Source of the DNA: Clostridium sp. AT4
GTDB lineage: Bacteria; Bacillota; Clostridia; Lachnospirales; Lachnospiraceae
Assembly (NCBI RefSeq): GCF_001517625.2
Contig: NZ_LN999828.1
Coordinates: 1,380,303 to 1,444,302, forward strand
DNA length: 64,000 bases
Reading direction: 5' to 3'
Notes under the pieces: generated by a model
Told to the model about the DNA's origin: nothing
Database searches by the model: none
The model's input: the letters and a program-made list of their open reading frames with translations, nothing else
Program-made: the position numbers and the translations under genes
Shown here: positions 39,942-57,114 of the stretch, piece by piece
How the letters are laid out: the number at the start of each line of letters is the position of its first letter
Numbering within the stretch: the first letter of the stretch is position 1

Positions 39942-40020
39942 TAAACCAATAGAATCTATTCGAAGCTATTGGTTTTCTTATTTTCAATTATTTTTGCTTA
40001 TATTTTTCTCCTCTCTCAAA

Positions 40021-40059
40021 TCTTACTTGTGTAATATTTTAATTATTACACAAGTAAGA
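40021..40059. promoter_or_regulatory. Perfect 16-bp inverted repeat holding two BlaI-type dyads
   Basis: TCTTACTTGTGTAATA (40021-40036) and its exact reverse complement (40044-40059) are separated by 7 bp. Each arm contains the dyad TTAC-N4-GTAA (40023-40034 and 40046-40057). It lies 93 bp before blaI. It may be a paired BlaI operator, a weak terminator of the XRE gene (the right arm is followed by TTTT), or both. Confidence 0.7.
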
Positions 40060-40084
40060 TTTTAAACCAACCTGTTTGTTTGAA

Positions 40085-40132
40085 TTGACAGCAGAAAAAA
40101 TAGAACTTATAATATTTTTATTACAACCGTAA
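40085..40132 (+). promoter_or_regulatory. blaI-blaR1 promoter with BlaI-type operator
   Basis: TTGACA (40085-40090), a 17-bp spacer and TATAAT (40108-40113) form a perfect sigma-A promoter. The dyad TTACAACCGTAA (40121-40132) covers the expected transcription start, so a bound dimer would block initiation. The ribosome site AGGAGGG follows and blaI begins at 40153. The same dyad occurs before the PBP operon and upstream of the class A beta-lactamase. Confidence 0.85.
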
Positions 40133-40152
40133 GATTTTAGGAGGGATTTTAA

Positions 40153-40539
40153 ATGAGTGACTTGCCGCAGATTTCCGAAGCTGAATATGAAGTTATGAAA
40201 ATCGTATGGAAACATGCTCCAATTAACACCAATGAAATAACAGAAAAATTACTGCAGTCCACAAACTGGAGTCCTAAAACGATACAAACACTTATTAAAC
40301 GTCTTGTTACTAAAGGTGCACTCACTTATGAAAAACAAAGTCGTGTTTTCGTTTATACTCCATTAGTAAAAGAAAGTGAATATATTTGCCAAGAAAGTAA
40401 TTCCTTTCTTAATCGTTATTATGACGGGGATATTACAGCTATGTTATCTGCATACATAGAAAATGACAAACTGACAGAACCAGAAATAGAAACGCTTCGC
40501 TCTCTTCTATCCAAGAGAGGAAAAAAAGGAGGCGATTAA
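40153..40539 (+). CDS. blaI: BlaI/MecI-family repressor
   Basis: A 128-residue winged-helix repressor of beta-lactam resistance genes. The HTH is EITEKLLQSTNWSPKTIQTL, with IKRLVTKGALTYEKQSRVFV as the wing, and a C-terminal dimerisation region. In staphylococci BlaI/MecI is cut near an Asn-Phe in the dimer domain; here SNSFLNRYY offers a comparable place, which is inference. The gene is 1 bp from blaR1 and directly downstream of a promoter-operator. It is the only intact blaI in the window. Confidence 0.93.
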   Translation: MSDLPQISEAEYEVMKIVWKHAPINTNEITEKLLQSTNWSPKTIQTLIKRLVTKGALTYEKQSRVFVYTPLVKESEYICQESNSFLNRYYDGDITAMLSAYIENDKLTEPEIETLRSLLSKRGKKGGD

Positions 40540-40540
40540 C

Positions 40541-42337
40541 ATGGCTAATTTCATGATACGCTTTTTATTATGCAATGTATTGATCAGCGGTATCATCGGA
40601 ATTCTTTTGATAGCCAAATGGGTATTCAGAAACAACTTGTCCAGCCGGATGCAGTATAATCTGTGGTTGCTGTTACTCGGACTTTTAGCAGTACCTTTTA
40701 TACCCTTCCGTCCAGTTTGTTTCCCGCAAATTTTCTCATGGCTCAGTAGCGTACAAAACTCCACCACTTCTCATGCAGATGTTGGTACAAATAATGTTAT
40801 GAATACCGATTTATCCGGTACTACAAATTGGATGAATGACTTTGCCCTTTCTGTAAACCATGACACATCATCCGTTACCGGGTACATTTTATTGAGTATA
40901 TGGATTGTGGGAATGCTTATGATGATGATATTGGTAATCAAATCTTCTCTTCGTTTACGCACTATAAAGAGATCTGCACTTCCCCTTCAGAATCCGAAAG
41001 TTCGCAGACTGTATAACAGATGCTTGAATGAGATGAAAATAATAAGGAATATTCCTGTGTACAGTACCGCTTTTTTGAAATCCCCTATTATCGTAGGATT
41101 TTTGAAGCCATGTATTTATCTGCCAATTCATTTAATCTCAGATTATCATGAATCTGATATGAGATATATGCTATTGCATGAACTACAACACTACAGACAT
41201 AAGGATGCCATTGCCAATTATCTTATGAACTTTGCCGGAGTGCTTTATTGGTTTAACCCCTTTGTCTGGTTTGCACTAAGAGAAATGCGTAACGACAGAG
41301 AAGTTGCCTGTGACACTTCTGTTCTAAAAATGCTTGAAGAGGACGATTATGAGAATTACGGAAATACGCTGATTAACTTTATAGAAAAGGTCTCCTTTTC
41401 TCCTTTTCCTTTTGCCGCCAACCTTAGCGGAAACATGAAACAAATGAAGCGTCGCATTATCAACATTGCCTCTTATGAGAAACCAACGTTTTGCAAGAAA
41501 TTAAAAGGCATGACTGCTTTTATACTGACCACAGTTCTAATAATGGGACTTACACCTTTTATTTCTACATATGCAGCGGACGAAAGTCGCTACCAATGGG
41601 AATCTTCCTCAGAAAATATTTCATATGTAGATTTTTCTAAATACTTTGGAAAATACGAAGGAAGCTTTGTTTTATACGATCTTAGAAATGATGTCTGGAG
41701 CATACATGATATAGAACATGCTACGCTACGAGTTGCACCGGATTCCACTTACAAGATATATGATGCTTTATTTGGATTGGAAGAAGGTGTCATTACACCA
41801 CAGGATTCTTTTATTGCATGGAATGGAGAAAACTACCCGTTTGAAGCATGGAACGCTGATCAGACCTTGCAGTCTGCTATGGCTTCATCTGTGAACTGGT
41901 ACTTCCAATCAGTGGACGAACAACTTGGTACTACTTCCGTTTACGATTATATCAAGGAAATCGGATATGGAAATAAGAACATGAGCGGTGATTTCTCCAC
42001 TTATTGGATGGAATCTTCCTTGAAGATTTCCCCAATAGAGCAGGTCGAACTTCTAACCAGGCTGCAGAATAACAGCCTTGGCTTCGCCCCTGAAAATATC
42101 AATGCAGTAAAAGATGCCATCTGCCTTTCCTCTTCCGATGCCGGAACATTCTACGGAAAGACCGGAACCGGACGAGTAAACGGACAAGATGTGAACGGTT
42201 GGTTTATAGGCTATATCGAAACTGCAGATAATACATACTTTTTTGCTACCAACATTGGTGCAGACAGCGATGCTACCGGAGGCAACGCAACTGAAATAAC
42301 CATGTCTATCTTGTCAGACATGAATATCTGGAAATAA
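40541..42337 (+). CDS. blaR1: BlaR1-type sensor-protease (first)
   Basis: BlaR1 binds beta-lactams outside the cell and activates a membrane zinc protease that relieves BlaI repression. The 598-residue protein has an N-terminal M56 membrane domain with the zinc motif HELQHYRHKD at residue 213 and a further membrane helix near 325-345. A class-D-like penicillin-binding sensor completes it: STYK with the acylated serine near residue 402, SSVNW, YGN and YGKTGTG. Length equals staphylococcal BlaR1. It is cotranscribed with blaI and followed by a strong terminator. Confidence 0.94.
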   Translation: MANFMIRFLLCNVLISGIIGILLIAKWVFRNNLSSRMQYNLWLLLLGLLAVPFIPFRPVCFPQIFSWLSSVQNSTTSHADVGTNNVMNTDLSGTTNWMNDFALSVNHDTSSVTGYILLSIWIVGMLMMMILVIKSSLRLRTIKRSALPLQNPKVRRLYNRCLNEMKIIRNIPVYSTAFLKSPIIVGFLKPCIYLPIHLISDYHESDMRYMLLHELQHYRHKDAIANYLMNFAGVLYWFNPFVWFALREMRNDREVACDTSVLKMLEEDDYENYGNTLINFIEKVSFSPFPFAANLSGNMKQMKRRIINIASYEKPTFCKKLKGMTAFILTTVLIMGLTPFISTYAADESRYQWESSSENISYVDFSKYFGKYEGSFVLYDLRNDVWSIHDIEHATLRVAPDSTYKIYDALFGLEEGVITPQDSFIAWNGENYPFEAWNADQTLQSAMASSVNWYFQSVDEQLGTTSVYDYIKEIGYGNKNMSGDFSTYWMESSLKISPIEQVELLTRLQNNSLGFAPENINAVKDAICLSSSDAGTFYGKTGTGRVNGQDVNGWFIGYIETADNTYFFATNIGADSDATGGNATEITMSILSDMNIWK

Positions 42338-42343
42338 AAATAT

Positions 42344-42384
42344 CGGGTAAAGGTCATAGTTATAATCCTTTGCCCGTTTTTTTT
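42344..42384. terminator. Bidirectional terminator after blaR1
   Basis: CGGGTAAAGG (42344-42353) and CCTTTGCCCG (42367-42376) form a 10-bp stem with one mismatch, followed by eight T residues. On the opposite strand the stem is also followed by a T-rich tract, so it can serve the converging gene at 42432-42866. Confidence 0.88.
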
Positions 42385-42431
42385 ATTTTCACTTTATGCA
42401 TAAAAGCGTTTCAACTATCCAGTTCTATACG

Positions 42432-42866
42432 TCAAGAATTAGATTTATTATTGATGTATTCTACAATTTCTCCAATAAAAAAAGATATCAATGTCCCAAT
42501 TGAAACAAACAAACTATCTCTATCACCTAATGATTCAATGAAGATTGAAAATGTAAACGTAAAGTTACTATACATATAATCATAAAAAACGTATTTCAGA
42601 GTACCTATCAAGAGCATCAACCCGAAAGAAATTAGTGCATATATTAGGCACAGCAAAAAGCTAATGTCAATGCTGCGTTTGACAATGATTTTTCCCATAA
42701 AAAAACCTAAAATAAAAACCCCAATATCAATATATGTATATATAATTAAAAAACCCAAATAGGCTAAGGCCGCATTATATTTGGGAAATAAATAAAAACA
42801 AAGAAAATAAGCCAAAGCCACACATACAAAATATACTAAAAAGAATATATTCAACAAAAACGTCAT
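42432..42866 (-). CDS. Four-helix membrane protein, unrecognised
   Basis: A 144-residue protein with about four hydrophobic segments (FLLNIFFLVYFVCVALAYFL, LGFLIIYTYIDIGVFILGFF, SFLLCLIYALISFGLMLLIG, SLFVSIGTLISFFIGEIV). No family recognised. It is very AT-rich and runs against its neighbours. Its start abuts the truncated blaI copy at 42870, so its arrival or a deletion probably removed the 5' part of that gene. Confidence 0.6.
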   Translation of the reverse strand: MTFLLNIFFLVYFVCVALAYFLCFYLFPKYNAALAYLGFLIIYTYIDIGVFILGFFMGKIIVKRSIDISFLLCLIYALISFGLMLLIGTLKYVFYDYMYSNFTFTFSIFIESLGDRDSLFVSIGTLISFFIGEIVEYINNKSNS

Positions 42867-42869
42867 TCT

Positions 42870-43004
42870 TTTTTAAATCGTTATTATAATGGTAAAATAA
42901 CAGCTATGATATCCTCTTATCTCGAAGATGATGCATTACCTACAACAGAAATAGAGGAACTCCGTTCCATTCTCACAAAAATGTCACAAAAAGGAGGAAA
43001 GTAA
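42870..43004 (+). pseudogene. Second blaI, only the last 44 codons left
   Basis: The frame reads FLNRYYNGKITAMISSYLED followed by DALPTTEIEELRSILTKMSQKGGK in two parts, closely parallel to the C-terminus of the intact BlaI (FLNRYYDGDITAMLSAYIEN). It ends 1 bp before the second blaR1, the same spacing as the intact pair. The DNA-binding domain and promoter are gone. Confidence 0.9.
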
Positions 43005-43005
43005 T

Positions 43006-44802
43006 ATGAGTGATTTTATGATACGCTTTCTCATTTGTAATTTATGGATTAGCTGTATCATTGGAATCCTTTTAGTAGTTAAAAAATTATTCAAAAAAAT
43101 TTTAACTAGCCGTATGCAATATAATTTATGGTTCTTATTATTTATATTGTTGTTAATCCCTTTTGTACCATCAAAGCCAACAAAATTTTTTTCCATATTT
43201 GCGTTATTTAGTAACATTCCACAATCAGAATTACCAAATAATGATATTGTATCACATACAACCAATGAAACAATTTTTGAAAATAATATGAATTGGATGA
43301 ATGACTTTACACTTTCTATCACTCAAGATACATCATCAATATTTGGATTGATTTTAGGAGCTGTTTGGATTATAGGTGTACTAACAATGATTATTTTGGT
43401 TACAAAATCAGTTTTACGCTTACATATGTTAAAAAAATCCGCTCTATCTTTGCAAAATGTTGAAGTACGAAAAATTTATTATAGTTGTTTAGATGAGATG
43501 AATTTAAAAAAGGATATCCCCATTTACAGTACTGCTTTTTTAAAATCTCCCATCATCGTTGGTATTTGGAAACCATGCATTTATTTGCCGATACATTTGA
43601 TTTCTGATTATAATACTTCTGATTTACGATATATGTTGCTACACGAGTTACAACATTACAAATATAGGGATAATATTACTAACTATTTTATGATTCTTAT
43701 TAGAATTATTTATTGGTTTAATCCTATTGTATTGGTTGCGCTAAAAGAAATGTGTCATGATAGGGAAATTGCTTGTGATAGTTCTGTATTAAAAATGCTT
43801 GAATATAAGGACTATATTAACTATGGAAATACATTGATTAATTTTGCTGAAAAAATTTCTACCACTCCATTTCCATTTGTAGCTGGACTTGGCGGAAATA
43901 TGAAGCAAATTAAACGCCGTATTCTTAACATTGCTTCTTATGAAAATCCTACCTATTGGAAACGAATAAAAGGATTGATTGCTTTTTTAATGACAGCTAT
44001 TTTACTTTTTGGTTGCTCTCCTATGTTGTCCACATATGCATCGGAGGAATGCTATACTTGGGATACTTCCTCAAAAAAGATTACGCTTGTAGATCTCTCA
44101 TCATATTTTGATGGGTACAAAGGAAGTTTTGTGCTTTACGATTTACAGAAAGATAATTGGAATATATACGATATAGAACAGGCAACTATACGAATATCTC
44201 CCAACTCTACTTATAAAATATATGATGCTCTATTTGCTTTAGAAGAAAATATTATTACTTCAGAAAATTCTTTTATTTCCTGTCCTCAACAGAATTATCC
44301 ATTTGAATCATGGAATGAAGACCAAACTCTGTTTTCTGCAATGAATTCTTCTGTTACTTGGTATTTTCAAGCTTTGGATGCAAAGTTAGGTAAATCTAAT
44401 TTGCAATCTTATATTGAACAAATTGGATATGGAAATCAAAACATAAATGGAGAACTTTCTTCATATTGGATGGAATCCTCCTTAAAAATCTCTCCTATAG
44501 AACAGGTAGAACTTTTAACGTCATTATACTTTAATGATTTTGGATTTACGCCAGAAAACATTCAAACTACAAAAGAAAGTATCCAGCTATTTTCAGATGT
44601 TAATTGCACAATTTATGGTAAAACTGGTACTGGATGTATTGAAGAAAAAAATGTAAACGGTTGGTTTATAGGTTTCGTGGAATCTAAAAATCATACATAT
44701 TTTTTTGCAACAAATATTCAAGCTATAGATAATGCAACTGGCAGTATTGCATCTGAAATTACACTTTCTATATTATCTGATATGAATATTTATAAATTAT
44801 AA
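43006..44802 (+). CDS. blaR1: BlaR1-type sensor-protease (second)
   Basis: Also 598 residues, clearly paralogous to the first BlaR1 (19 of the first 30 residues identical). It keeps all functional motifs: HELQHYKYRD at residue 213, STYK near 401, SSVTW, YGN and YGKTGTG. Its DNA is visibly more AT-rich than the first copy, so it was probably acquired separately rather than duplicated in place. Its own blaI is truncated and no promoter is obvious, since the old one is lost. If expressed it would have to act on the intact BlaI. AAAGGAGG precedes the ATG. Confidence 0.92.
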   Translation: MSDFMIRFLICNLWISCIIGILLVVKKLFKKILTSRMQYNLWFLLFILLLIPFVPSKPTKFFSIFALFSNIPQSELPNNDIVSHTTNETIFENNMNWMNDFTLSITQDTSSIFGLILGAVWIIGVLTMIILVTKSVLRLHMLKKSALSLQNVEVRKIYYSCLDEMNLKKDIPIYSTAFLKSPIIVGIWKPCIYLPIHLISDYNTSDLRYMLLHELQHYKYRDNITNYFMILIRIIYWFNPIVLVALKEMCHDREIACDSSVLKMLEYKDYINYGNTLINFAEKISTTPFPFVAGLGGNMKQIKRRILNIASYENPTYWKRIKGLIAFLMTAILLFGCSPMLSTYASEECYTWDTSSKKITLVDLSSYFDGYKGSFVLYDLQKDNWNIYDIEQATIRISPNSTYKIYDALFALEENIITSENSFISCPQQNYPFESWNEDQTLFSAMNSSVTWYFQALDAKLGKSNLQSYIEQIGYGNQNINGELSSYWMESSLKISPIEQVELLTSLYFNDFGFTPENIQTTKESIQLFSDVNCTIYGKTGTGCIEEKNVNGWFIGFVESKNHTYFFATNIQAIDNATGSIASEITLSILSDMNIYKL

Positions 44803-45717
44803 AAGTAACAATCATATAGATAGGAAAAAACAACATAACTCAATCAGTTTAGTTCAACACAATTCTTTAAATTGATAAAAGGATGGTACACAAAAAGATA
44901 AACTACCCATATTGTGTGGACAGCATATAAAAAACATTCTTGTTAAGATAATAATATTTGAGTTAAAAACAGGAGTGGCAATGCCACTCCTGTTTTTAAC
45001 TGGACATACTTATGGTTATAAAAAATGACTAACAGATATAAAATATCCTGTTATATATACATATAAGAAATATCTATTACCCATTTTCTGTGTCAGCAAC
45101 TTTCTATCCATATTTCTTCATAAATTGCATGATTGTTTTCGAAAATCATAATATCCACAGCAAGATACCTAAAAGAAATGATACATCATTGATAATGTAT
45201 CGCATACTCTGTGTCTGTATATAACCTCATATTGCACCTGTACTCTCACATCCGTTCTTCTAATCGCAGAAAATTCCGTAAAAGTTCATTTTTCATCTTC
45301 AGGCACTCAATTTCTTACTGATATTCTCTGATACTAGCTGGTTCTGTCTGTTTTTTAGGACGTCCTCTGTATTTTAGCAGAAGCCCAGCAATAAGACGAG
45401 TCTATTCCCGATTATAGTAATTGATTCAGTTTTCAATTTGTCGAATCTCTAATTAAAAGTATTTTACAAGCTTACGGATTGGTTTTTCCTACTTTACACA
45501 TAGCAATCAGCTTTGGTTCAATTATTTGATATGCGTGTATTTACTTTTTGCTATAACAAAACCTGCTCATATAATCAAGTGTTTTTTGTTGAAACCACAG
45601 GCTCCTTATGTGATTCTATTATTTTAAATAAGGGGGCTTTTTGTCATTGTCCGTTTTTATTGGTTCAGTTCACTTTTTATGCTCAGATACAATAGGAAAA
45701 ATTATTTTAAATTTTGC
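44803..45717. other. AT-rich intergenic region with transposase debris
   Basis: No intact gene. A perfect hairpin at 44961-45001 ends the second blaR1. Around 45250-45400 the minus strand encodes KYRGRPKKQTEPASIREYQ and a leucine-rich stretch, interrupted by a stop, like the first protein of an IS3-type element. A terminator-like hairpin (GCTCCTTAT near 45601 with ATAAGGGGGC near 45632, then TTTTT) precedes the regulated promoter at 45718. Confidence 0.5.
44961..45001. terminator. Perfect 19-bp hairpin
   Basis: AGTTAAAAACAGGAGTGGC (44961-44979) is followed by a 3-base loop and its exact complement (44983-45001). The outer part of each arm is A- or T-rich, which makes it a bidirectional terminator for the second blaR1, 160 bp upstream. 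Confidence 0.75.
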
Positions 45718-45746
45718 TTGACTTTTAAATATTACTATTGTAATAT
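45718..45746 (+). promoter_or_regulatory. BlaI-regulated promoter upstream of class A beta-lactamase
   Basis: TTGACT (45718-45723), a 17-bp spacer and TAATAT (45741-45746) form a promoter. The dyad TTACTATTGTAA (45732-45743) overlaps the -10 exactly as at the PBP promoter. The first gene downstream on this strand is the class A beta-lactamase, more than 400 bp away, so the leader is unusually long. Confidence 0.75.
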
Positions 45747-46159
45747 TTAAAGCGTGCTTCACACAATAGACTTATTGCTATATTTTCTCAACTAAAATTT
45801 TATATTGACAAATACATATAGAATTCATTTTATTTATAAAGAGAGGTGACAAAACATTTTCAAAATCTTAATACAAATATGTTGAGAAAAGATAAACTAT
45901 GTTGGATTATAGTTCGTAAGCACAACTAAAATGAATGGTTTACTAAATTTAACCTAAATAAAGAATTATATATTGTGACAAATACAACTCTCATATCCTT
46001 TAAAATGTAAATACTACTATTTTATTATGGATTTGCAATGAAAAACTTGAAAGGTGGAGATAATATATTACAAATGCATAAGTTAGCTATATGAAATGAT
46101 ATAAATGCTTCAAAAATTCAAAATTCTATGTATAATCTATATTTTAGGAGGATAAAGTT
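45747..46159 (+). other. Long AT-rich leader before the beta-lactamase
   Basis: About 400 bp without a gene. A ribosome-site-like GAGAGGTGA at 45841 is followed by no start codon and only a short frame, perhaps a decayed leader gene. TATAAT near 46130 could be a nearer, weaker promoter. AGGAGG at 46147 serves the beta-lactamase. Confidence 0.4.
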
Positions 46160-47053
46160 ATGAAACACAACAAAATTACCATAAGTATTTTAATGATCTT
46201 TGTCATATTATTATCTGTTGGATGTAGTAATAATCAAGAAAACATTTCTGATGGCAATGAAAATGTTAATGCAGATTATGATTTTCTATTTCAAGAACTG
46301 GAAGAAAAATATGATGCTACATTAGGAATTTATGCACTTGATACAGAAACTAATAAAGAAATTTCTTATAATGCAGATGAAAGATTTGCATACTGTTCAA
46401 CATATAAAGCTTTAGCTGCCGGTGCCATTTTAGAAAAATACTCTATTGAAGAACTTGATAATGTAATATATTTTGAAGAAGAAGATGTTTTATCTTATGC
46501 ACCAGTTGCAAAAGATAAAGTAGATACTGGAATGACTATTAGAGAAATATGTGATGCTGCAGTTAGACAAAGCGATAATACTGCTGGAAATCTACAATTT
46601 ACTCTTCTTGATGGACCTAATGGTTTTAAACAATCATTAAGTAAAATTGGTGATACTGTAAGTGAGCCTTCTAGAATAGAAACTGAATTGAATGATGCTG
46701 TACCTGGCGATATAAGAGATACTAGTACTCCTAAACAATTGGCTTTAAATTTAAAAGAATATGCAACTGGAGATATATTGTCAGATGATAAAAAAGAGAT
46801 TTTTATAGATTGGATGTCAAATAATGCAACTGGTGATGAATTAATTCGCGCTGGTGTACCAAGTGATTGGATTGTGGCAGATAAAAGTGGTGCTGGTTCT
46901 TACGGAACACGAAATGATATCGCTATTGTAACACCCCCAAATAAAAAACCTATATTTGTAGCTGTACTTTCAAAAAAAGCAGAACAAGATGCAGAATATG
47001 ACAATAAACTGATAGCAGATGCCACAAAAATCATCTTTGATTTAATATCATAA
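46160..47053 (+). CDS. bla: Class A beta-lactamase, lipoprotein form
   Basis: The enzyme hydrolyses beta-lactams by a serine mechanism. All class A motifs are present: STYK at residue 80 (S70-x-x-K73), SDN at 138, E-x-x-x-N as ELND at 176 (E166/N170 region) and KSG at 242 in place of the common KTG. The N-terminus has a lipobox, LLSVGCSNNQ, so it is probably anchored to the outer face of the membrane. Codons are strongly AT-biased compared with core genes, indicating transfer from a low-GC donor. It lies downstream of a BlaI-type promoter-operator. Confidence 0.95.
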   Translation: MKHNKITISILMIFVILLSVGCSNNQENISDGNENVNADYDFLFQELEEKYDATLGIYALDTETNKEISYNADERFAYCSTYKALAAGAILEKYSIEELDNVIYFEEEDVLSYAPVAKDKVDTGMTIREICDAAVRQSDNTAGNLQFTLLDGPNGFKQSLSKIGDTVSEPSRIETELNDAVPGDIRDTSTPKQLALNLKEYATGDILSDDKKEIFIDWMSNNATGDELIRAGVPSDWIVADKSGAGSYGTRNDIAIVTPPNKKPIFVAVLSKKAEQDAEYDNKLIADATKIIFDLIS

Positions 47054-47789
47054 AAATTGATTCACTCAAAAATAAATTAATATACCAAAATACAATTACA
47101 AAAGTTTTATCTTAGAAACTCTCAAAAAGAACCATAGATAAGATTCTTCTATGACGATATAGGTGAAATACTTGAATTCAAGCATTTCACCTTTTTTGTA
47201 AGGATATGTAGAAAAGTCTATAAATAAGGATGCTTCTATAACAATTTGGAATACTTAAAATTAGAGATTTGAACCTTATGTTATAAATACTATCTATCTA
47301 ACGGGTATCGATAACAGGCGGCTTTTCAAACATTTTAACCAAGATATTGATTTACTCTGAAATCCTATTTCATATATAATACTCAGTTTATCATAGTTCT
47401 GCGCTCAGTTCCGAATGGTATTAGTTTACCTTTTGCTTGCTTCGAAAGTAAAGCAATATAGTATCTTTAGCAAGGCAGTATTGATTTGAAGTACACTCCT
47501 TTGCTTATTTAGCTTTCTATAGGTCGCATTCAAATATTCCACCTTGTTTGACGACAGATTTCGGCATAATAGGTTTGATGAAAAAGCCTTTAAACACATT
47601 TTAAGAGGTCTAAAAATTCAAGTCGTTAAAAAAGTGATAGTGATAATAGATAACACCAATTAAAATGCAAAAAAACTTTATCTTTCTTTCGTTTTTTATG
47701 TTTTTTATTCAACCGGAGAAATTGATAAAGCTGGATATTACTACAAATTAGAAATATAAATCTAATCTATCAAATATGGAGGAATGACT
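47054..47789. mobile_element. Degenerate IS256-family remnant in intergenic DNA
   Basis: The sequence ATAAGATTCTTCTATGA near 47140 matches the left end of the intact IS256-type element at 49598-49616. It is followed by a hairpin terminator at 47161-47197 (GGTGAAAT-N-CTTG with its complement, then TTTTTT), just as in the intact copy. From about 47320 to 47530 the DNA parallels the 3' end of that transposase gene (TATATAATACTCAGTT against TACATAATGCTCAGTT) with many differences. No reading frame survives. Nothing else is recognised up to the next gene. Confidence 0.6.
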
Positions 47790-48448: not shown

Positions 48449-48482
48449 ATAAAAAAATATAAAGACAGGAGAAAAGATAATA

Positions 48483-49460
48483 ATGATAACAAAGAATAAA
48501 TTTTATTTGAAAATGATATTTACAGCATGTATATGTGCAATTATTTTAACTGGCTGTGGTAGTAAGTATACTGTAGAGGAAAAAAGCTTGGTTGAAAACC
48601 AAAAAGAAAATCAAGAAACACTGGAAAATGGAGTAAACAGAACTTCTATGGAAAAAAGTATGGAATTTTCCGATGAAAGCACAGAGAAAATACCAGAAAT
48701 AGTAGAGGTAGACTGGTCAGAGTATTTTAATGGATTGAATGGAACAGCAGTTATATATGATGCATCCAATAAAAAATATACAATTTATAATCGTGATCTT
48801 GCAATTACAAGAAGTTCACCATGTTCGACATTTAAAATTATTTCTTCTTTGATTGCCTTAGAAAACGGAATTATTGAAACGGAAAACTCTACTAAAACAT
48901 GGAGTGGTGAAATATTTTGGAATGAAGATTGGAATAAAGATATTGATTTTCAAGAAGCTTTTCGTACTTCTTGTGTATGGTATTTCAGACAGGTCATTGA
49001 TGATATTGGAGAAGATTTAATGCAGAAGGAATTAGATAAGCTCCAATATGGTAATTGTGATATTTCTGATTGGGAGGGACGATTAAATACAAATAATAGT
49101 AATAGAGCTTTGACGGGCTTTTGGATTGAATCTTCTTTAATGATTTCACCCAAAGAACAAGTGGAAGTAATGGAGCATATCTTTGGAAAAGAATCGAATT
49201 ATTCAGAAGAAACACAGAATACATTAAAGCAAGTTATGCTTTTATCAGAGGTTGATAGTACTGACATTTCTATATATGGAAAAACCGGAATGGGAAAAGT
49301 CGATGGTATTGTTGTTGACGCTTGGTTTACAGGGGTTGCGGAAAGTAAAACAGGAGATGTGTATTTTTGTGTGCGTCTTGGAAGAACTGATGGTATGAAT
49401 GTATCCAGCACATTGGCAAAAGAAATAGCAATCGATTTGGTTCAAATAACATTACAATAA
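48483..49460 (+). CDS. Class D beta-lactamase-like lipoprotein
   Basis: A 325-residue lipoprotein (lipobox ILTGCGSK) with a linker of about 60 residues and a class D serine beta-lactamase domain. It has STFK at residue 115, SCVW at 163 (S-x-V), YGN at 189, FWIESSLMISPKEQ near 215 and KTG at 267. It resembles the C. difficile CDD type and the sensor half of BlaR1, but lacks the BlaR1 membrane protease. It could be a true enzyme or a drug-binding decoy; the SxV and YGN motifs favour the enzyme. GGAGAAAAG precedes the ATG. No BlaI-type dyad lies directly in front. Confidence 0.85.
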   Translation: MITKNKFYLKMIFTACICAIILTGCGSKYTVEEKSLVENQKENQETLENGVNRTSMEKSMEFSDESTEKIPEIVEVDWSEYFNGLNGTAVIYDASNKKYTIYNRDLAITRSSPCSTFKIISSLIALENGIIETENSTKTWSGEIFWNEDWNKDIDFQEAFRTSCVWYFRQVIDDIGEDLMQKELDKLQYGNCDISDWEGRLNTNNSNRALTGFWIESSLMISPKEQVEVMEHIFGKESNYSEETQNTLKQVMLLSEVDSTDISIYGKTGMGKVDGIVVDAWFTGVAESKTGDVYFCVRLGRTDGMNVSSTLAKEIAIDLVQITLQ

Positions 49461-49597
49461 ATACAAAATGAAATATAGTTAACTAGATAGTGTCTACACG
49501 AGTTTATGCCAAAATTGCACACCAATGGCAATGCAATAAATTTGCACTACTGCTAGAAATAATACTGTGCTTTGAGAGTATGAGAAAATCTCTGTAA

Positions 49598-51024
49598 ATA
49601 AGATTCTTCTATGATAATTAAGAGCGATAAGCTTGTGAATCAGGCTTGTCGTTCTTGTTTTATATATAACAGTTGCTTACGGGCATGTCAAGAGCAGGCG
49701 GTTTCCCGCCTGTCTTCTTAACCCTTCTTTTGCTTACTCGGGTAAGCGTCCCTCGTACATAATGCTCAGTTCTCCATAAACCTGAGCCCAATCACGGATG
49801 GTGGTAGTCCATTTTTTCGTAGCCTCAAAAGTAGCCAGATACAAGGCCTTTAACAGGGCGGTATCGCTTGGAAATACGCTTCTCTGACGGTTCAGCTTCC
49901 GGTATGTGGAGTTCAGTGATTCGATCGCATTGGTTGTATAAATGACCTTCCGGACAGTGGTTGAAAATTTAAAAATTGGAGAAACAGCATCCCAGTTGTC
50001 TTTCCAGCGTTTCATGGAATTCGGGTATTTCGGAGTCCATTTTTCAGTTACACGTTCCAAGGTAGCCAGAGCCTTCTGCTCATCAGCGGCCTGATAGATG
50101 GTTTTTAAATCTGCAGCAAAGGCTTTTCTGTCCTTGTCCGGAACGTATTTCAGGGTGTTTCTTACCTGATGGACAATACACCTCTGGTATTCTGTTTTGG
50201 GAAACGCAGCTGAAATCGCTTCTTTAATGCCTGTAAGGCCATCGGCACAGATGATCAGGATATCTTTTACTCCGCGATTTTTCAGTTCGTTCAGGACTGA
50301 CAGCCAGTATTTCGCACTTTCATTGTCACCAATCGTAATCGTCAGGACTTCCTTTTTCCCCTCCGCATTAATGCCAAGAATAACATAGGCTGCAAGCTTA
50401 CGAATGACTCCATTATCCCGCACAGAATAGTGGATCGCATCGATGTAAAGGATTGGATATACCTCATCCAATGGGCGGTTCTGCCAATCTTCAATCTGAG
50501 GAAGTATCTTATCCGTCACATCGGATATGAAACTTTCTGATGTTTCAAAACCATAGATATCTTCAATCGTTTCCGAGATCTGGCGAGTGGTCATTCCTTT
50601 GGCATACATAGAGATGATCTTCTGATCAATATCAGAAATATCTTTCTGACGCTTTTTCACCACCTGTGGTTCAAAGGTCGATTTCCGATCCTGTGGGACC
50701 TCGATTTCCATAGAGCCATATCGACTGTTTACCTGCTTGCGTTTATAACCGTTACGATAATCGTCATTGTCAGAACGCTGGGATTTCTCATATCCAAGAT
50801 GGTCATCCATTTCAGCCTCCATCATTTCTTTAATGGTGCCGCCCAGAAGATCTTTGAGTGCATCCTGGATATCTTCTGCGGTCTCGATATCGTATTCTTC
50901 GAGAAGCTGGCGGATGATGTTCCTTTTTCCTTCAGTCATTTCAACTCTGTGAACTGGTTTCTTTTGTTTTGCCATAGTAAAAGGCCCTCCTAATGATATT
51001 TATTGTATCATAGAAGGACCTTAC
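49598..51024 (-). mobile_element. IS256-family insertion sequence
   Basis: The ends form an imperfect inverted repeat, ATAAGATTCTTCTATGATA at 49598-49616 and the complement of GTAAGGTCCTTCTATGATA at 51006-51024, 15 of 19 positions identical. Internally, a hairpin with T tract lies near 49620-49660, followed by the transposase. True ends may extend a few bases, since TCTGTAAA is found outside both. The element sits between the class D gene and the lipoprotein/PBP operon. Confidence 0.75.
49734..50975 (-). CDS. IS256-family (Mutator-type) transposase
   Basis: An intact 413-residue transposase with EVPQDRKSTFEPQVVKKRQK, MYAKGMTTRQISETIEDIYG, the catalytic-domain start VYPILYIDAIHYSVRDNGVI, LIICADGLTGIKEAISAAFP and YTTNAIESLNSTYRKLN, all hallmarks of the IS256 group (DDE catalytic residues). 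Its GC content is higher than that of the AT-rich genes to its left. AGGAGGGCC precedes the ATG. It appears functional. Confidence 0.95.
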   Translation of the reverse strand: MAKQKKPVHRVEMTEGKRNIIRQLLEEYDIETAEDIQDALKDLLGGTIKEMMEAEMDDHLGYEKSQRSDNDDYRNGYKRKQVNSRYGSMEIEVPQDRKSTFEPQVVKKRQKDISDIDQKIISMYAKGMTTRQISETIEDIYGFETSESFISDVTDKILPQIEDWQNRPLDEVYPILYIDAIHYSVRDNGVIRKLAAYVILGINAEGKKEVLTITIGDNESAKYWLSVLNELKNRGVKDILIICADGLTGIKEAISAAFPKTEYQRCIVHQVRNTLKYVPDKDRKAFAADLKTIYQAADEQKALATLERVTEKWTPKYPNSMKRWKDNWDAVSPIFKFSTTVRKVIYTTNAIESLNSTYRKLNRQRSVFPSDTALLKALYLATFEATKKWTTTIRDWAQVYGELSIMYEGRLPE

Positions 51025-51126
51025 TTAGGTTATTTTACAGAAAAAGTTTCATAGGCTCACTAAAAATGGAGAATACGTTCTAACAAACTTTCTCATAAAA
51101 ACACCTCACTCCACCAATATTATCAA

Positions 51127-52383
51127 TCATTCTTTAATTCGGTACTGATAGGCTGGTATCTCCTTAATTCCATCATCAAGGATTTTATTCCCCAAATATT
51201 GAAAGCTACCATCATCAGCAAACTTTACTGTAAGTTCATGGGTTATGACTGCATCATCACAAATGACCATATCACACACCGCATCCACCGTTAATGTCAC
51301 TGTTCCATCCTCATTTTCTTTGATATCAATAACCTCCGGCAACGAAGTTCCAAAAAAAGTTGGTGCATAGTTAAGGCAGCCTAGTCGTACCCATACATAA
51401 GTCTGATTTTTTTCATCAAATACCGCATATTCCTGAATTTGCTCTGCTGTTACCGGAAGATATTCCATGATCAAACTCTCAAATTCTTCTTTTGGTATTC
51501 CATTTGGATAATCCTCGGCATCAAACGCTTTCTGATGTTTCATGGCATACAGATATTCATATATTCCATTATAGTCCAGTTTTTCCATATGGTCGGTATC
51601 CCAATTCGAGCATAAAAGATTATTTCCCTGATACCCCAGACCTTGTACGCATTTTTCTGACATTTCCCTTTGTTCCTTAGTCAATGGTTTTATTCTTACC
51701 AAACAACTTCCATCAACAATCTCCGTAACTTCCGGTGGTTCTGGAACACATAATTCATAACAAAACCATCCTTTATCCGTATATTTCCACTCTTTTATTC
51801 TGGTATAGGAAATATAGGACAGTCCAGGAGCATCTTTCATATTCCATGTAGCACTTGCACCCATTAGATACATATTTTCCCCATCAAAAATAAATTTATC
51901 TCTCCCAATACCACCATCGGAATGAAGTTCGTAAACTACTACTGATCCACTTTTTCCTTTCAGACACTCCTTAAGAAAATTATCAACTTTTTCGTAATTT
52001 TCCATATTTGAATACGTTTCCATTGCTGTAACCGGATATCCTTTTTCTTTTATCCTGTCCTGCATCTCATGAATCGTTTCGTCATTTAGAACAACATTGG
52101 AGGCATCTCCCTTATCTGCACGATGATAAATATCAGAAATAAGCCCCATCACTTTTTTACAGTCACTCTCAGCTTCTTCCCTTTCCTGCTCATCTACTGG
52201 AAGGTCATAGCCCTTTTCCCACTGTTCTGCGGCTTCTTGCTTCTCACTCTTTGCCTCTTCCGCAGAAGCAACTTCTTCTTTACCTTCTGCAAATTGTCTA
52301 TCTGATGCCACATCATGCTTTTCGCAAGCACACAATAAGCAACCAATCAGCAGTATCATAATTAACAAACTACATTTTTTCAT
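51127..52383 (-). CDS. PBP-operon lipoprotein 3, unknown function
   Basis: About 418 residues. The signal sequence MKKCSLLIMILLIGCLLCAC carries a lipobox, so the protein is surface-anchored. A charged linker follows. The C-terminal part contains CLVRIKPLTKEQREMSEKCV, IPKEEFESLIMEYLPVTAEQ and ENEDGTVTLTVDAV, shared with the two genes upstream. The ATG at 52383 has AAAGGA 8 bp before it. Last gene of the operon, 27 bp after its neighbour. I do not recognise the family. Its place suggests help to the PBP or a cell-wall stress role, but that is inference. Confidence 0.75.
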   Translation of the reverse strand: MKKCSLLIMILLIGCLLCACEKHDVASDRQFAEGKEEVASAEEAKSEKQEAAEQWEKGYDLPVDEQEREEAESDCKKVMGLISDIYHRADKGDASNVVLNDETIHEMQDRIKEKGYPVTAMETYSNMENYEKVDNFLKECLKGKSGSVVVYELHSDGGIGRDKFIFDGENMYLMGASATWNMKDAPGLSYISYTRIKEWKYTDKGWFCYELCVPEPPEVTEIVDGSCLVRIKPLTKEQREMSEKCVQGLGYQGNNLLCSNWDTDHMEKLDYNGIYEYLYAMKHQKAFDAEDYPNGIPKEEFESLIMEYLPVTAEQIQEYAVFDEKNQTYVWVRLGCLNYAPTFFGTSLPEVIDIKENEDGTVTLTVDAVCDMVICDDAVITHELTVKFADDGSFQYLGNKILDDGIKEIPAYQYRIKE

Positions 52384-52410
52384 GAACATCATCCTTTCGT
52401 TTAGGGCACA

Positions 52411-53691
52411 TCATGGATATGTCCTTGCTATTGGTGGCAAATCCAATTCCTTTTGTTCAATAGAATTGGATAGATACCTGAAAGTTCCATCCTCAAATGG
52501 CTGGACTACTATTTGATTCGTAAACGCACAATCTGAATTATAATCCGCCCATACTCCGTCTACGATCAGTGTAATCGTCCCATCAGAGTTTTCTGTATAA
52601 TCAATAACTTCTCCAAATGGTGGATATGGACTGGCATAAATCATTTCATATTCGTAACTGTTGCTTCCCTCATCATATCCACAATGCTCTCTTAGCTGTT
52701 CTACGGACACTGGGAAATAGGTGGTCATAATCTTCTCATATTCTTCTGCCGGAATTCTCCAGTCTTGCGTTTTCAAATTTTCGCCCGTATAAATACGATA
52801 GATATCTTCAAACATGCAGGGCATCAATATGTCTTCCACATTGCTGCTATCCCAGTTTACAACAAGCATATTATAATTCACATAGCTTAATCCTGATATG
52901 TACTTTTTCGTAAGTTCTCTGCATTTATCTGAAAGTGGTTTTATTCTCCAATACTCCCGTAAACCTGCATGAGCCATTACTTCTTCATACGCATAGATAA
53001 AATAACCCTTTTCTGTCAGTTTGATCTCCGCCACATCACTAACGGAAGTACCCTGTATCTCCGGCACCCCACCTTCTTTCCATCGCACTCCTATGTAATA
53101 AGTCTGCAATTTATTTTTACGATAGATAAAAGTTACTGCACCCAACAACCCATCTCTATGTACATCAAATACTGTTACCATTGAATCATGACCATCCAAA
53201 TATTCAGCATAGAATGTCTCTATTTTTTCATAATTCTGCATATTGGTATCTTCTTCTACACTCACCAATCCTTTACTGCCCAAGTGTTCTACAACAACTT
53301 TTCGCTGTTCGCTAGTGAAGTCACTAATACCAGAAGAATAGTTTGGTGCATCTGAAATTACTATATCCACATATATTTCACTGACTGATTCGGCTGCTGA
53401 TAATACCATACTTTGTAATTCTTTCTTTTCCTCATCTGTAACTAAGCACTCCTCAGATTGAGGCACGAACCAATATACAGACTCCATAGAAGATTCCGTA
53501 TCTGTTTCCTCTACCGATACCTCTTCGCTGTTCTCGATTTCTACAGGAGGTTCCCATACTTCCTCTGCTACACTTTGAGGTTTCTCCGTTTTCAATTTTT
53601 CCCAACAGACCGTACCAACTATAACAACAAACAAGAATATCAAAATTGGAAATTCGCACTTTCTAAACATCCATTTCACATCTTCCATCAT
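52411..53691 (-). CDS. PBP-operon membrane-anchored protein 2, unknown function
   Basis: A 426-residue paralogue of the neighbours. It has an N-terminal membrane helix (FPILIFLFVVIVGTVCW) without a convincing lipobox, so it is probably anchored by the helix. Shared C-terminal blocks are YWRIKPLSDKCRELTKKYIS, IPAEEYEKIMTTYFPVSVEQ and ENSDGTITLIVDGVW. The ATG overlaps the stop of the preceding gene by 4 bp, so translation is coupled. Function unknown. Confidence 0.75.
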   Translation of the reverse strand: MMEDVKWMFRKCEFPILIFLFVVIVGTVCWEKLKTEKPQSVAEEVWEPPVEIENSEEVSVEETDTESSMESVYWFVPQSEECLVTDEEKKELQSMVLSAAESVSEIYVDIVISDAPNYSSGISDFTSEQRKVVVEHLGSKGLVSVEEDTNMQNYEKIETFYAEYLDGHDSMVTVFDVHRDGLLGAVTFIYRKNKLQTYYIGVRWKEGGVPEIQGTSVSDVAEIKLTEKGYFIYAYEEVMAHAGLREYWRIKPLSDKCRELTKKYISGLSYVNYNMLVVNWDSSNVEDILMPCMFEDIYRIYTGENLKTQDWRIPAEEYEKIMTTYFPVSVEQLREHCGYDEGSNSYEYEMIYASPYPPFGEVIDYTENSDGTITLIVDGVWADYNSDCAFTNQIVVQPFEDGTFRYLSNSIEQKELDLPPIARTYP

Positions 53692-54929
53692 TTACCTCCA
53701 TATATTTCATCCCATTCCTTCGCTGTCAGGCGAGGTGTATGCCATGTTTCCTCACAATTATCCTCGGATGGTATAATTCGGTTAGACACATACTGTACTC
53801 CTCCATTCTCTAAAGGACGAACTACAACCTCGTGGGCAAATACTTTGGAATTATCCGCATAAGGGAACACCACGTTGGCTGTCAATGTAAGTGTTCCATC
53901 GCTGTTTTCTGTAAATCCAACTACCTCTGAATATGGGTATTCCGGATACTCTACTTCCTCAAATCCTCTCGGTTTATATTCATAGGTTTCATCCTCTGCA
54001 TAATAGATAGTTTTGGACTGTAATGTTTCACTATCGATATTGAAATATGCCATGATAACGCTTTCAAAGTCATCCTTGGGAATTCGATAAACAGCACCAA
54101 CTCCTAAATTATCATCTGCAACATAAGGGGTGTATGTCCCATTTACTTTTGGATAAAGAAGATCATACATATCATAGAAATTCAAATCCCCAAAATCATC
54201 CTCACTCCAATCTACAATGAACATATTATTCTGTTCAAAGCCGATTGGAAGAAGATACTTCCGACTCAACTCTCTGTATGTTTCATCCAAAGGCTGTACC
54301 CGTAATGCGGTATGCTCCTCCGCTCCGCTCAATGTCAGTACATATAATTCTTCCGAAAACCAAACTCCTGAAAACATAAGATAACCGTCTTCTGTATAAT
54401 TCCAATACTCCGCCTGATAACTTCCTGTCACCTCTCGTTTCATGTTTCCGTTTTCGTACTTATAATAGCTTCTGACCACATCCACATTTCCGTCTTTTGT
54501 TTCCAAATCATATTTTACAAATCCGCCCAAGTAACTGACCTCAATAATTGTTATTTCAGCCTCTTCCTGCGTATCCACCATTTCACAGAACCGTTCTACC
54601 TGCTCTGCCTCAGTCATATCAATCTGATTTCTGCTGTCAACAGCCGGATACCCATTTTCTCCAAACTGATTTACAATAATACGAACCGTTTCTAAATCTG
54701 CTATTTTATTCTCCTCTGAAGCTTTTTTATACAGCTGCGAACATATTTCTATAATCTCATCTTCATTGTCCTTCACATTTTGTTGTTGATCTTGTACTGC
54801 AATTTCACTTTCTACTACTTGCTCATCTTCCAAATGTGTATCACTACACCCAGAAACGCTAAGCAACATCATAATACTAATTGCTATGAAACCAATCCTC
54901 CAATACTGCACTGTCCTTTTTAACGACAT
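53688..54929 (-). CDS. PBP-operon lipoprotein 1, unknown function
   Basis: A 413-residue protein with a signal peptide and lipobox (MMLLSVSGCSD). Shared blocks with the other two are ALRVQPLDETYRELSRKYLL, IPKDDFESVIMAYFNIDSET and ENSDGTLTLTANVV. GAGGAGG lies 7 bp before the ATG, inside the PBP coding sequence, and the two genes overlap by 53 bp. The overlap strongly ties its expression to the PBP. No enzymatic motif is visible; a binding or scaffold role outside the membrane is a reasonable guess. Confidence 0.75.
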   Translation of the reverse strand: MSLKRTVQYWRIGFIAISIMMLLSVSGCSDTHLEDEQVVESEIAVQDQQQNVKDNEDEIIEICSQLYKKASEENKIADLETVRIIVNQFGENGYPAVDSRNQIDMTEAEQVERFCEMVDTQEEAEITIIEVSYLGGFVKYDLETKDGNVDVVRSYYKYENGNMKREVTGSYQAEYWNYTEDGYLMFSGVWFSEELYVLTLSGAEEHTALRVQPLDETYRELSRKYLLPIGFEQNNMFIVDWSEDDFGDLNFYDMYDLLYPKVNGTYTPYVADDNLGVGAVYRIPKDDFESVIMAYFNIDSETLQSKTIYYAEDETYEYKPRGFEEVEYPEYPYSEVVGFTENSDGTLTLTANVVFPYADNSKVFAHEVVVRPLENGGVQYVSNRIIPSEDNCEETWHTPRLTAKEWDEIYGGK

Positions 54930-56988
54930 AGCCGCTTCCTCCTCTTCCTTTTACATCTTCAACCATGCTGATAATCAATATAGGATGTTCCACTGTTTCC
55001 TCCGTCGAATAGATAGCAAACCATCCCAGTTCCGTACCTGAAGTATCATCCTTCGATGCCTTAATCTCTGCGGTACCAGTTTTTCCTGCCAAAACAACAT
55101 CATCACGATGAGCTGCATATCCGGTTCCATGAGAATCATTCACAACTTTTTTTGTGCCTTCTAATACTTGGTTTGCTGTTTCCTTAGAAAATGCTCTCGG
55201 CATCCAAAACGTAACAGTCGCTTCAGCCTGATATACCAGATAAGGTTTTATAATATTTCCCTCATTACAGAAAGCAGAATAGATACATGCCATATGTAAA
55301 GGATTTACCAAAACCTGTCCTTGTCCATAACCACTGTCTGCTAATTGTATTTCCGTTTCAATGTTTTCTGTATTAGAGTATTGTGATTTTGCCATCTTAA
55401 TATCAAATGGAATCTCTTCATTAAATCCCAGTTCCGTCAATGAGCTTTCCATCTCTTCTGTACCAATTTTTAATGCAGCTTTTGCAAAATAAATATTATC
55501 TGAATAAATTAATGCATTCTCTAAAATGACAGGTTCATATGTATGAAGTGTAGTCACACAATAAGAACCCCATGAAGAATCTTTTTGCCAACTTAACCCC
55601 TCATTTCCATAGTCCTCCATCGGATCAATTGCTTCTGATTCCAACCCAATTGCTGCAATTATCGGTTTGAAAGTCGATCCAGGACACCATACCTGTCGAA
55701 AGCGATTATACATCGGCTTATTCTCGTCCTCGTTCAGTGCAGTCCACTGTTCATTAGATAACCCCATGATGAAATCATTATTATCATAGGACGGTGTACT
55801 GACCAAAGCCAAAACTTCTCCTGTATACGGGTTCATTGCTACAGAACAACTTTTATCTTCTTTAAACTGCTCATATAATGACCTCTGAAGTTCAGCATCT
55901 ATAGTTAGTTGTATGTCCTTTCCATCCTGTACAAATATGCTCGCAAGTTCCGCTTTCTTGTTCCCATCAGAATCTACAATATAAATGTCGCAGCCGTTTT
56001 GTCCTTTCAGTTCTTTTTCAAATAAACCTTCCATTCCGCTTTTACCCATTACGCTATTGGCTGTATATCCCTCTCCCGCATGGTTCTCTAAATCTTCTGC
56101 GGTAACACTCTGTACATAACCTACTAAATGCGCAGCTGCCTCACCTAATGGATACTCTCGCACCTCAGTGTCAGATATCATCACTCCCGGAATTTCAAGC
56201 AATTTTTTTTGTCTTTCATTCTCTTTCAACACCTCTTCATCCGGCTCGATTTTCATTAACTCAATTTCTGCCACTTTAGGAATCGTTTTAATTGGTACAA
56301 AGGAATCTTCTTTTACCCACTTTGCAGACAGTTTCTTTTCAATCACTTCTGGTTCAATTTCCAACAACTCTGCTATTTGCTGAATAGCTTCATCTCTATC
56401 TTCCAATTTTCCCGGTACAATTCCAACCGAAGATGCAACGCCTTTTCCGGCAAGAACCCGCCCATTTCTATCCAAAATATCCCCTCGATTTGCCTGCGTG
56501 GTAGAAATCTTTACCTTGTCTGTTGAACCTAATTCTGGAAAGATCAGTGAATCGTCCCATACCAACTCATATCCATCTTCCCCCTTCAGAAAAATTGCCT
56601 CATTCTCAAAACTGATATTACCTGCTACCGTATCAAAAGAAGTTTGATAAGTTACTGCTTTTCGTTCCTCATCATATGCTGTAACTTCAATCTCCATATT
56701 GTCCACTTCAATACCTTCATAAATAGCCGAATTTCGCTTTACAAAAACATCCTGACTTATATTTCTTGATGCTTCAATATTTAACATCGCATACATTTCT
56801 TCATACTCCTGCTTTGGAATATGATTCATATATTCAACTAAAAGTTCTTCTGGAGAAACCAATGTATTTTGCTTTCTATACAAAATGCCAATACATACAA
56901 TAGCTCCAATAAACGTTATTCCCAACACAAATACCGTCAAACAAATTGTCGTTCTTTGTTTCTTTTTCCTTCTTACTCTACGCTTCAC
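54877..56988 (-). CDS. MecA/PBP5-like class B penicillin-binding protein
   Basis: A 703-residue transpeptidase that crosslinks peptidoglycan. After a basic tail and membrane helix (residues 14-34) comes an NTF2-like MecA_N domain (about 45-155, EELLVEYMNHIPKQEYEEMY). A PBP dimerisation region follows (RGDILDRNGRVLAGKG near 190, VREYPLGEAAAHLVGYVQ). The transpeptidase domain has STFK near residue 438, SDN near 493 and KTGTAE near 634. This architecture is that of staphylococcal PBP2a and enterococcal PBP5, which bind beta-lactams poorly. Low affinity here is inference. It starts at a GTG with GGAGG upstream, under a BlaI-type promoter-operator, and leads a four-gene operon. Confidence 0.9.
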   Translation of the reverse strand: MKRRVRRKKKQRTTICLTVFVLGITFIGAIVCIGILYRKQNTLVSPEELLVEYMNHIPKQEYEEMYAMLNIEASRNISQDVFVKRNSAIYEGIEVDNMEIEVTAYDEERKAVTYQTSFDTVAGNISFENEAIFLKGEDGYELVWDDSLIFPELGSTDKVKISTTQANRGDILDRNGRVLAGKGVASSVGIVPGKLEDRDEAIQQIAELLEIEPEVIEKKLSAKWVKEDSFVPIKTIPKVAEIELMKIEPDEEVLKENERQKKLLEIPGVMISDTEVREYPLGEAAAHLVGYVQSVTAEDLENHAGEGYTANSVMGKSGMEGLFEKELKGQNGCDIYIVDSDGNKKAELASIFVQDGKDIQLTIDAELQRSLYEQFKEDKSCSVAMNPYTGEVLALVSTPSYDNNDFIMGLSNEQWTALNEDENKPMYNRFRQVWCPGSTFKPIIAAIGLESEAIDPMEDYGNEGLSWQKDSSWGSYCVTTLHTYEPVILENALIYSDNIYFAKAALKIGTEEMESSLTELGFNEEIPFDIKMAKSQYSNTENIETEIQLADSGYGQGQVLVNPLHMACIYSAFCNEGNIIKPYLVYQAEATVTFWMPRAFSKETANQVLEGTKKVVNDSHGTGYAAHRDDVVLAGKTGTAEIKASKDDTSGTELGWFAIYSTEETVEHPILIISMVEDVKGRGGSGYVVKKDSAVLEDWFHSN

Positions 56989-57040
56989 CTTTGTCTAACC
57001 TCCGTTCTTTACAAAATATATTTCCTACTCGCCTTTAATA

Positions 57041-57114
57041 TTACACTTGTAAGATTTTAAACTAAAAAAAATTCTCTCGTGTTAAATATTACACCCGTAA
57101 TATTTTTGTGTCAA
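57041..57114 (-). promoter_or_regulatory. BlaI-regulated promoter of the PBP operon
   Basis: On the minus strand TTGACA (57109-57114), a 17-bp spacer and TAATAT (57086-57091) form a near-consensus promoter. The dyad TTACGGGTGTAA (57089-57100) overlaps the -10. A second dyad, TTACAAGTGTAA (57041-57052), lies about 34 bp further into the transcribed leader. Two operators suggest tight repression, as in the staphylococcal bla and mec regions. The start codon is 53 bp beyond the second dyad. Confidence 0.87.

Follow-up and report, generated by a model that had tools for sequence, protein, structure and literature searches.

We analysed a 64,000-nucleotide stretch of Clostridium sp. AT4 (contig NZ_LN999828.1, positions 1,380,303 to 1,444,302; hereafter the window), in which genes for a BlaI-family repressor, BlaR1-type sensors, a class A beta-lactamase, a replacement penicillin-binding protein (PBP) and three DUF6070 proteins very probably form an inducible beta-lactam defence regulon carried on a conjugative element. 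The original prediction, that one repressor governs hydrolysis, a replacement transpeptidase and three proteins of then unknown kind, remains the best reading, with one intact BlaI, operators matching OP1 of Bacillus licheniformis and operator positions that are fixed in dozens of relatives all pointing to shared control.

In the mechanism that we propose, a BlaI dimer would bind AAATMTTAC-N4-GTAAKATTT palindromes. In front of the class A gene and of the PBP-DUF6070 operon, such a site extends from the promoter spacer into the -10 element, such that the repressor would compete with polymerase, and the operator near the start site of the consensus blaI-blaR1 promoter would provide autoregulation. 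Acylation of BlaR1 by a beta-lactam would lead to inactivation of BlaI, and loss of the repressor would allow the class A enzyme, a MecA_N-type transpeptidase and three DUF6070 envelope proteins to be made together, the last of these held at the membrane, where they would assist the replacement PBP or the mending of the wall during beta-lactam exposure. The regulatory part, binding and induction, is predicted on strong sequence evidence, and DUF6070 proteins are perhaps envelope helpers of the PBP.

Operators and promoters

The sites, promoter-like pairs, gene identities, conservation and association reported here are read directly from the letters. All six TTAC-N4-GTAA dyads previously claimed are exact. 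The window holds eight such dyads compared to 0.62 expected and a maximum of three in 100 shuffles; the two that had not been claimed, at 6493 and 49734, lie inside listed open reading frames (ORFs) and do not match the longer form described next. Across the genome (3,412,755 bases) the 12-bp core occurred at 84 places and a reversed control at 90, so the core alone carries little weight. An 18-letter form, ATNTTACNNNNGTAANAT, consisting of the core and two more fixed letters per side, was found by whole-genome pattern search at four places in 3.41 Mb (control 0), all of them claimed sites (pattern starts 40020, 45729, 57038 and 57086). Because this form was picked after reading the flanks of these very sites, the informative part of the count is that no other genomic match exists. 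The concern that the dyad might be commonplace thus holds for the core but not for the longer form. The dyads at 40046 and 40121 are one letter off ATNTTACNNNNGTAANAT.

The assignment of the sites to a TACA/TGTA-type class was right in kind, though the closest printed match is instead AAATCTTACATATGTAATA, contained in the OP1 oligonucleotide of B. licheniformis used for electrophoretic mobility shift assays (PMC3305447, in excerpt), to which the window operator letters are equal. The three promoters said to be overlapped by operators are all present with 17-bp spacers, but only those of the class A gene and the PBP contain the operator, which overlaps both spacer and -10. At blaI the operator begins farther on, 13 nt past the first -10 base and close to where transcription should start. 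A promoter scan of the region yielded 87 pairs against a shuffle mean of 76.8, and with a yield so near that of shuffles the three promoters count because they carry operators and because their geometry recurs in relatives.

We assessed this recurrence in 77 loci found by a search with the PBP, most of them titled Lachnospiraceae or genera that we assign there; among the exceptions are Priestia taiwanensis (L106) and Listeria aquatica (L109), neither of which has a core site. PBP starts were located in 74 loci, 69 of which had 400 bp upstream; five PBP and five blaI upstream regions were left out as too short. The core operator was present in 53 of the 69 PBP upstream regions (random windows of the same loci, mean 1.83; shuffles 0.43) and in 34 of 39 blaI upstream regions (random windows 1.02; shuffles 0.20), while a DUF6070-seeded set gave 16/19 for PBP (random 0.74) and 22/27 for blaI (random 0.62). 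A promoter-like pair overlapped the operator in 48 of the 53 PBP regions, and in 45 of these 48 the operator began 9 nt ahead of the -10; 32 of the 34 blaI regions had a promoter-like pair with the operator starting 8 to 13 nt past the first base of the -10. The overlap arises partly by construction, as the script sought overlapping pairs, but the fixed offset does not, and the window's three promoters obey both offset rules. The consensus given above was read from 169 core sites upstream of relatives' PBP and blaI genes, which were found without using flanking letters; the flanks are nonetheless near-fixed, with T at -2 in 166/169 and A at +13 in 167/169. That the dyads are chance matches in AT-rich DNA, as the genome-wide frequency of the core would allow, is highly improbable, since the longer form is confined to this locus and relatives carry the core at constant distances from promoter elements.

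Two further arrangements accompany these operators. The dyads at 40023 and 40046 form an inverted pair with 22-nt arms (95% complementary) upstream of the blaI -35, and paired operators upstream of the blaI promoter recur in several relatives 23-25 bp apart, compared to 23 bp in the window. By eye no divergent promoter was seen at 40023-40057; the pair may be auxiliary or looping sites. In several relatives (L038-L041, L047 of Roseburia inulinivorans, L087 of Coprococcus catus, L093, L102, L103 and L107) a further site of the type TAATCTTAC-N4-GTAAGA stands just behind the third DUF6070 gene (D3), before unknown genes, possibly as an additional regulon branch that was lost or displaced in the window.

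Repressor, sensors and an inferred insert

The window's blaI is the one intact Penicillinase_R gene of the genome (118.8 bits, cut-off 22.6), accompanied by one remnant before a second blaR1 gene, blaR1b. Among solved structures its protein comes closest to the penicillinase repressor 1p6r, which we take to be from B. licheniformis; the two share the identical stretch WSPKTIQT, presumably within the recognition helix. Its placement among such repressors is supported by operators of the familiar letter class, both in front of blaI itself and at the promoters of its putative targets. For S. aureus (Staphylococcus aureus) BlaI, cleavage has been reported at N101-F102 (PMC3305447, in excerpt), whereas an alignment through MecI gives S-F at this position in the window's BlaI, so its release may differ.

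Both sensors pass the NCBIfam BlaR1 model NF000326 (700.8 and 667.9 bits, cut-off 400). A terminator-like hairpin stands between blaR1a and what appears to be an insert; it is missing from the general scan output, which covered loops of up to 8 nt, its own loop being 13 nt. Compared with a Clostridium fessum locus (L103), the window aligns at 84% over 40012-42858 and resumes at 51112, and we therefore read 42859-51111 as an 8.25-kb insert that would have split an ancestral convergent locus. The C. fessum locus is compact, with the PBP, part of the first DUF6070 gene (D1), D3, two unknown genes, a membrane gene and convergent blaR1-blaI, and because the layout of other relatives is also compact, insertion here is favoured over loss in C. 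fessum. The putative insert contains a blaI remnant and a second full-length blaR1, neither of which figured in the original prediction. Behind them come the class A gene, the class D-like gene and a transposase of the Mutator family. Elsewhere in C. fessum, a second locus carries a copy of 44751-47173, operator included, that is 94-97% identical amid flanks of 75-78%, which suggests that recombination brought a cassette, complete with operator, into the locus.

A reading in which BlaR1a and BlaR1b serve different drug ranges and both act on the single BlaI would fit two full-length proteins with M56 and sensor domains and only 60% mutual identity, as well as the finding that a search of 299 genomes returned, outside this one, no copy closer than 63% to BlaR1b. 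We regard it as unlikely, because the hairpin follows blaR1a, the blaI before blaR1b is a remnant and a letter search of the window found no exact dyad between 40132 and 45732, which together suggest that blaR1b may be silent.

The class A assignment stands, with 305.1 bits for the general class A model NF033103 (cut-off 200) and the motifs STYK, SDN, ETELN and KSG read by eye, which we take to be the functional motifs of that class. The gene starts (46160) about 400 nt from the 45718 promoter. The leader, 45747-46160, is ~97% identical in C. fessum, and inspection by eye showed a ribosome-binding-like site near 45846 that is followed by a short reading frame. The gene at 48483 resembles CDD-type class D enzymes and BlaR1 sensor domains but scores below class D cut-offs (NF012161, 176.7 against 250 bits; CDD model, 250.4 against 600), and no exact TTAC-N4-GTAA occurs between 45743 and its start.

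The switch might instead respond to general wall damage or peptidoglycan fragments, with the PBP operon serving a commensal wall-stress programme rather than drug resistance. A peptidoglycan dipeptide is reported to free B. licheniformis BlaI from its operator (PMC3305447, in excerpt), and only one of the 77 loci (L051) matched the window's class A gene within the fetched stretch. This is nevertheless a rather improbable account, as both BlaR1 copies retain the penicillin-sensor domain and pass the BlaR1 model, and the window's class A gene carries the same operator.

The PBP, its DUF6070 neighbours and their carrier

The description of the PBP as MecA-like is borne out by its MecA_N, PBP_dimer and Transpeptidase domains but not by the curated MecA cut-off (MECA_PBP2A, 450.1 against 750 bits); the best NCBIfam model, NF051842 for Enterococcus PBP4(5), is also missed (597.7 against 700), and we therefore call the protein MecA_N-type rather than MecA. 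Its closest solved relatives are PBP3 (7bn9), PBP2a entries and PBP4/PBP5 entries.

The three previously unknown proteins belong to DUF6070 (PF19546; 428.3, 235.4 and 469.2 bits, cut-off 27), to which Pfam assigns no function and whose name was not found in a literature search. Among 299 family genomes, a MecA_N PBP was present in 36 of 54 with DUF6070 and in 23 of 245 without (odds ratio 19, p = 7e-18). In 40 of 71 loci a DUF6070 gene follows the PBP gene directly, and among 32 D1-type genes examined, 30 have their start within the PBP coding sequence. An NTF2-like fold is one candidate for the C-terminal part of DUF6070. Where the PBP is lacking, 11 of 37 DUF6070 regions have a core operator in front (random mean 1.18), and in one locus (L166) the core sites before DUF6070 face a divergent blaI as well. 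Two variants of the family were also observed: a GH25 muramidase fused to DUF6070 (L156:8372-10225), with a match to both parts listed in its own genome only, and single long frames, seemingly with two to three tandem DUF6070 copies (L048:3002-5317, L049:10021-12372, L067:10057-12303 and others).

Several results weigh against a BlaI regulon of this extent. The 12-bp core by itself is not enriched across the genome, and the exact core is missing from 16/69 PBP and 5/39 blaI upstream regions; identity to the query is 34-69% for the former, apart from L048 (81%), and the latter are L048, L053, L061, L085 and L086. Many loci are near relatives and some are common to both sets, so the counts are not independent events. 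BlaI does not pass the named NCBIfam models (Bacillus BlaI, 119.4 against 180 bits; methicillin-resistant S. aureus BlaI, 72.5 against 250; MecI, 91.8 against 250) and is therefore called a BlaI-family repressor rather than one of those proteins. The proposed mechanism does not account for the ~400-nt class A leader, and ampicillin resistance was absent from a strain of Blautia producta whose annotation includes blaI and blaR1 (PMC8146736, in excerpt). DUF6070 was not detectable in the fetched stretch of 28/71 PBP loci, and in 22/58 DUF6070 regions the PBP, BlaI, BlaR1 and the core were all absent nearby, so DUF6070 is not solely a BlaI target.

These 22 unlinked regions, together with the varied and mostly unrelated neighbours of 15 of them that we inspected, would suit DUF6070 genes that are mere passengers, co-transcribed with the PBP by position and active in general envelope upkeep unrelated to beta-lactams. 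The core operator before DUF6070 in PBP-less regions, the co-occurrence with MecA_N PBPs and the conserved gene overlap make passenger status doubtful, and the recurrent layout in many related bacteria points to a role in penicillin defence. A possible, still tentative view is that DUF6070 proteins form a specialised envelope class, found mostly in Lachnospiraceae, whose task during beta-lactam exposure is to support the replacement transpeptidase or to mend the wall. They would then be a component of inducible resistance outside the staphylococcal and Bacillus models, one that would have spread with the switch on conjugative elements.

The prediction of a conjugative carrier agrees with an integrase and a relaxase in the window and with a coupling protein, TraG-type ATPase and TrbL to its right, by which gene content the surroundings can be classed as a putative integrative conjugative element. 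A CD1107-like protein and a topoisomerase also lie to the right. Interspersed with these genes are a resolvase and another relaxase, possibly parts of a nested element. A reverse transcriptase gene was also seen in the element right of the window (L186:865-2760).

Table 1 Features of the window with strand and basis of assignment
Feature	Position	Strand	Basis
Tn916-type integrase	34444		similarity search
Relaxase	37969		similarity search
Distal BlaI-type dyad, left arm of inverted pair, upstream of blaI	40023..40034	.	exact letters, inverted pair
Distal BlaI-type dyad, right arm, upstream of blaI	40046..40057	.	exact letters, inverted pair
blaI promoter, TTGACA-17-TATAAT	40085..40113	+	promoter scan
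BlaI-type operator near expected blaI-blaR1 start site	40121..40132	.	letters, promoter scan, similar offset in relatives
blaI, penicillinase repressor, 128 aa	40153..40539	+	domain, structure-relative and genome searches
blaR1a, M56 peptidase and penicillin-sensor domain, 598 aa	40541..42337	+	domain and NCBIfam searches
Terminator-like hairpin and T run after blaR1a	42344..42384	+	folding z -5.0
Membrane protein gene, 144 aa; relative of L103 13614-14054 (146 aa, last gene before blaR1)	42432..42866	-	ORF list, locus comparison
blaI remnant, C-terminal part only	42865..43005	+	locus alignment, genome search
blaR1b, second full-length sensor, 60% identical to blaR1a	43006..44802	+	domain and NCBIfam searches
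Promoter TTGACT-17-TAATAT overlapping class A operator	45718..45746	+	promoter scan
BlaI-type operator upstream of class A gene	45732..45743	.	exact letters, longer form
Class A beta-lactamase, 297 aa, lipobox-like signal (by eye)	46160..47053	+	domain and NCBIfam searches
Class D/BlaR1-sensor-like protein	48483..49460	+	NCBIfam and similarity searches
Mutator-family transposase	49734..50975	-	domain search
DUF6070 paralogue D3, lipobox-like signal (by eye)	51127..52392	-	domain search
DUF6070 paralogue D2, hydrophobic N-terminus without lipobox (by eye)	52411..53691	-	domain search
DUF6070 paralogue D1, lipobox-like signal (by eye); 53-nt overlap with PBP gene	53688..54929	-	domain search
MecA_N-type PBP, 703 aa	54877..56988	-	domain, structure-relative and NCBIfam searches
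BlaI-type operator in PBP leader, downstream of PBP -10	57041..57052	.	exact letters, longer form
PBP promoter TTGACA-17-TAATAT overlapping operator	57086..57114	-	promoter scan
BlaI-type operator across part of spacer and -10 of PBP promoter	57089..57100	.	letters, longer form, promoter scan
ArdC/YodL protein	57386		domain search

Relation to known systems

The family DUF6070 gains a concrete context in predicted co-expression with a replacement PBP under BlaI. The arrangement suggests that mec-like logic, in which hydrolysis and target replacement answer to one repressor, is common in gut anaerobes and mobile on a conjugative element, and the operator pattern lets candidate beta-lactam regulons be read from commensal genomes.

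The system resembles blaP-blaI-blaR1 of B. licheniformis (OP1-OP3) in the letters of OP1, in a related BlaI and in an operator at the repressor's own gene. The B. licheniformis genes form a divergon with the beta-lactamase (PMC3305447, in excerpt), whereas here blaR1 and the PBP operon converge in 41 of 60 related loci that could be judged, which either had a blaR1 match or reached at least 6 kb to each side; of the remainder, 3 have blaR1 upstream and divergent, 2 have it in some other position and 14 lack it. The regulon here would also add the PBP and DUF6070. The low-affinity PBP4/PBP5 of Enterococcus give the window's PBP its best NCBIfam model and, for PBP5, a solved relative, but it scores below the cut-off of that model and stands under BlaI-type operators. 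With the S. aureus bla and mec systems it shares one type of repressor over a beta-lactamase and a MecA_N-PBP_dimer-transpeptidase protein, although the PBP here falls below the MecA cut-offs; to our knowledge there is no DUF6070 in the staphylococcal systems. Exchange of the repressors BlaI and MecI over blaZ and mecA is reported for S. aureus (PMC3305447, in excerpt). A single repressor over beta-lactamase and replacement PBP is thus already known from Staphylococcus, and what is new is DUF6070 as a recurrent predicted BlaI target, along with the targets, layout and spread of the putative regulon.

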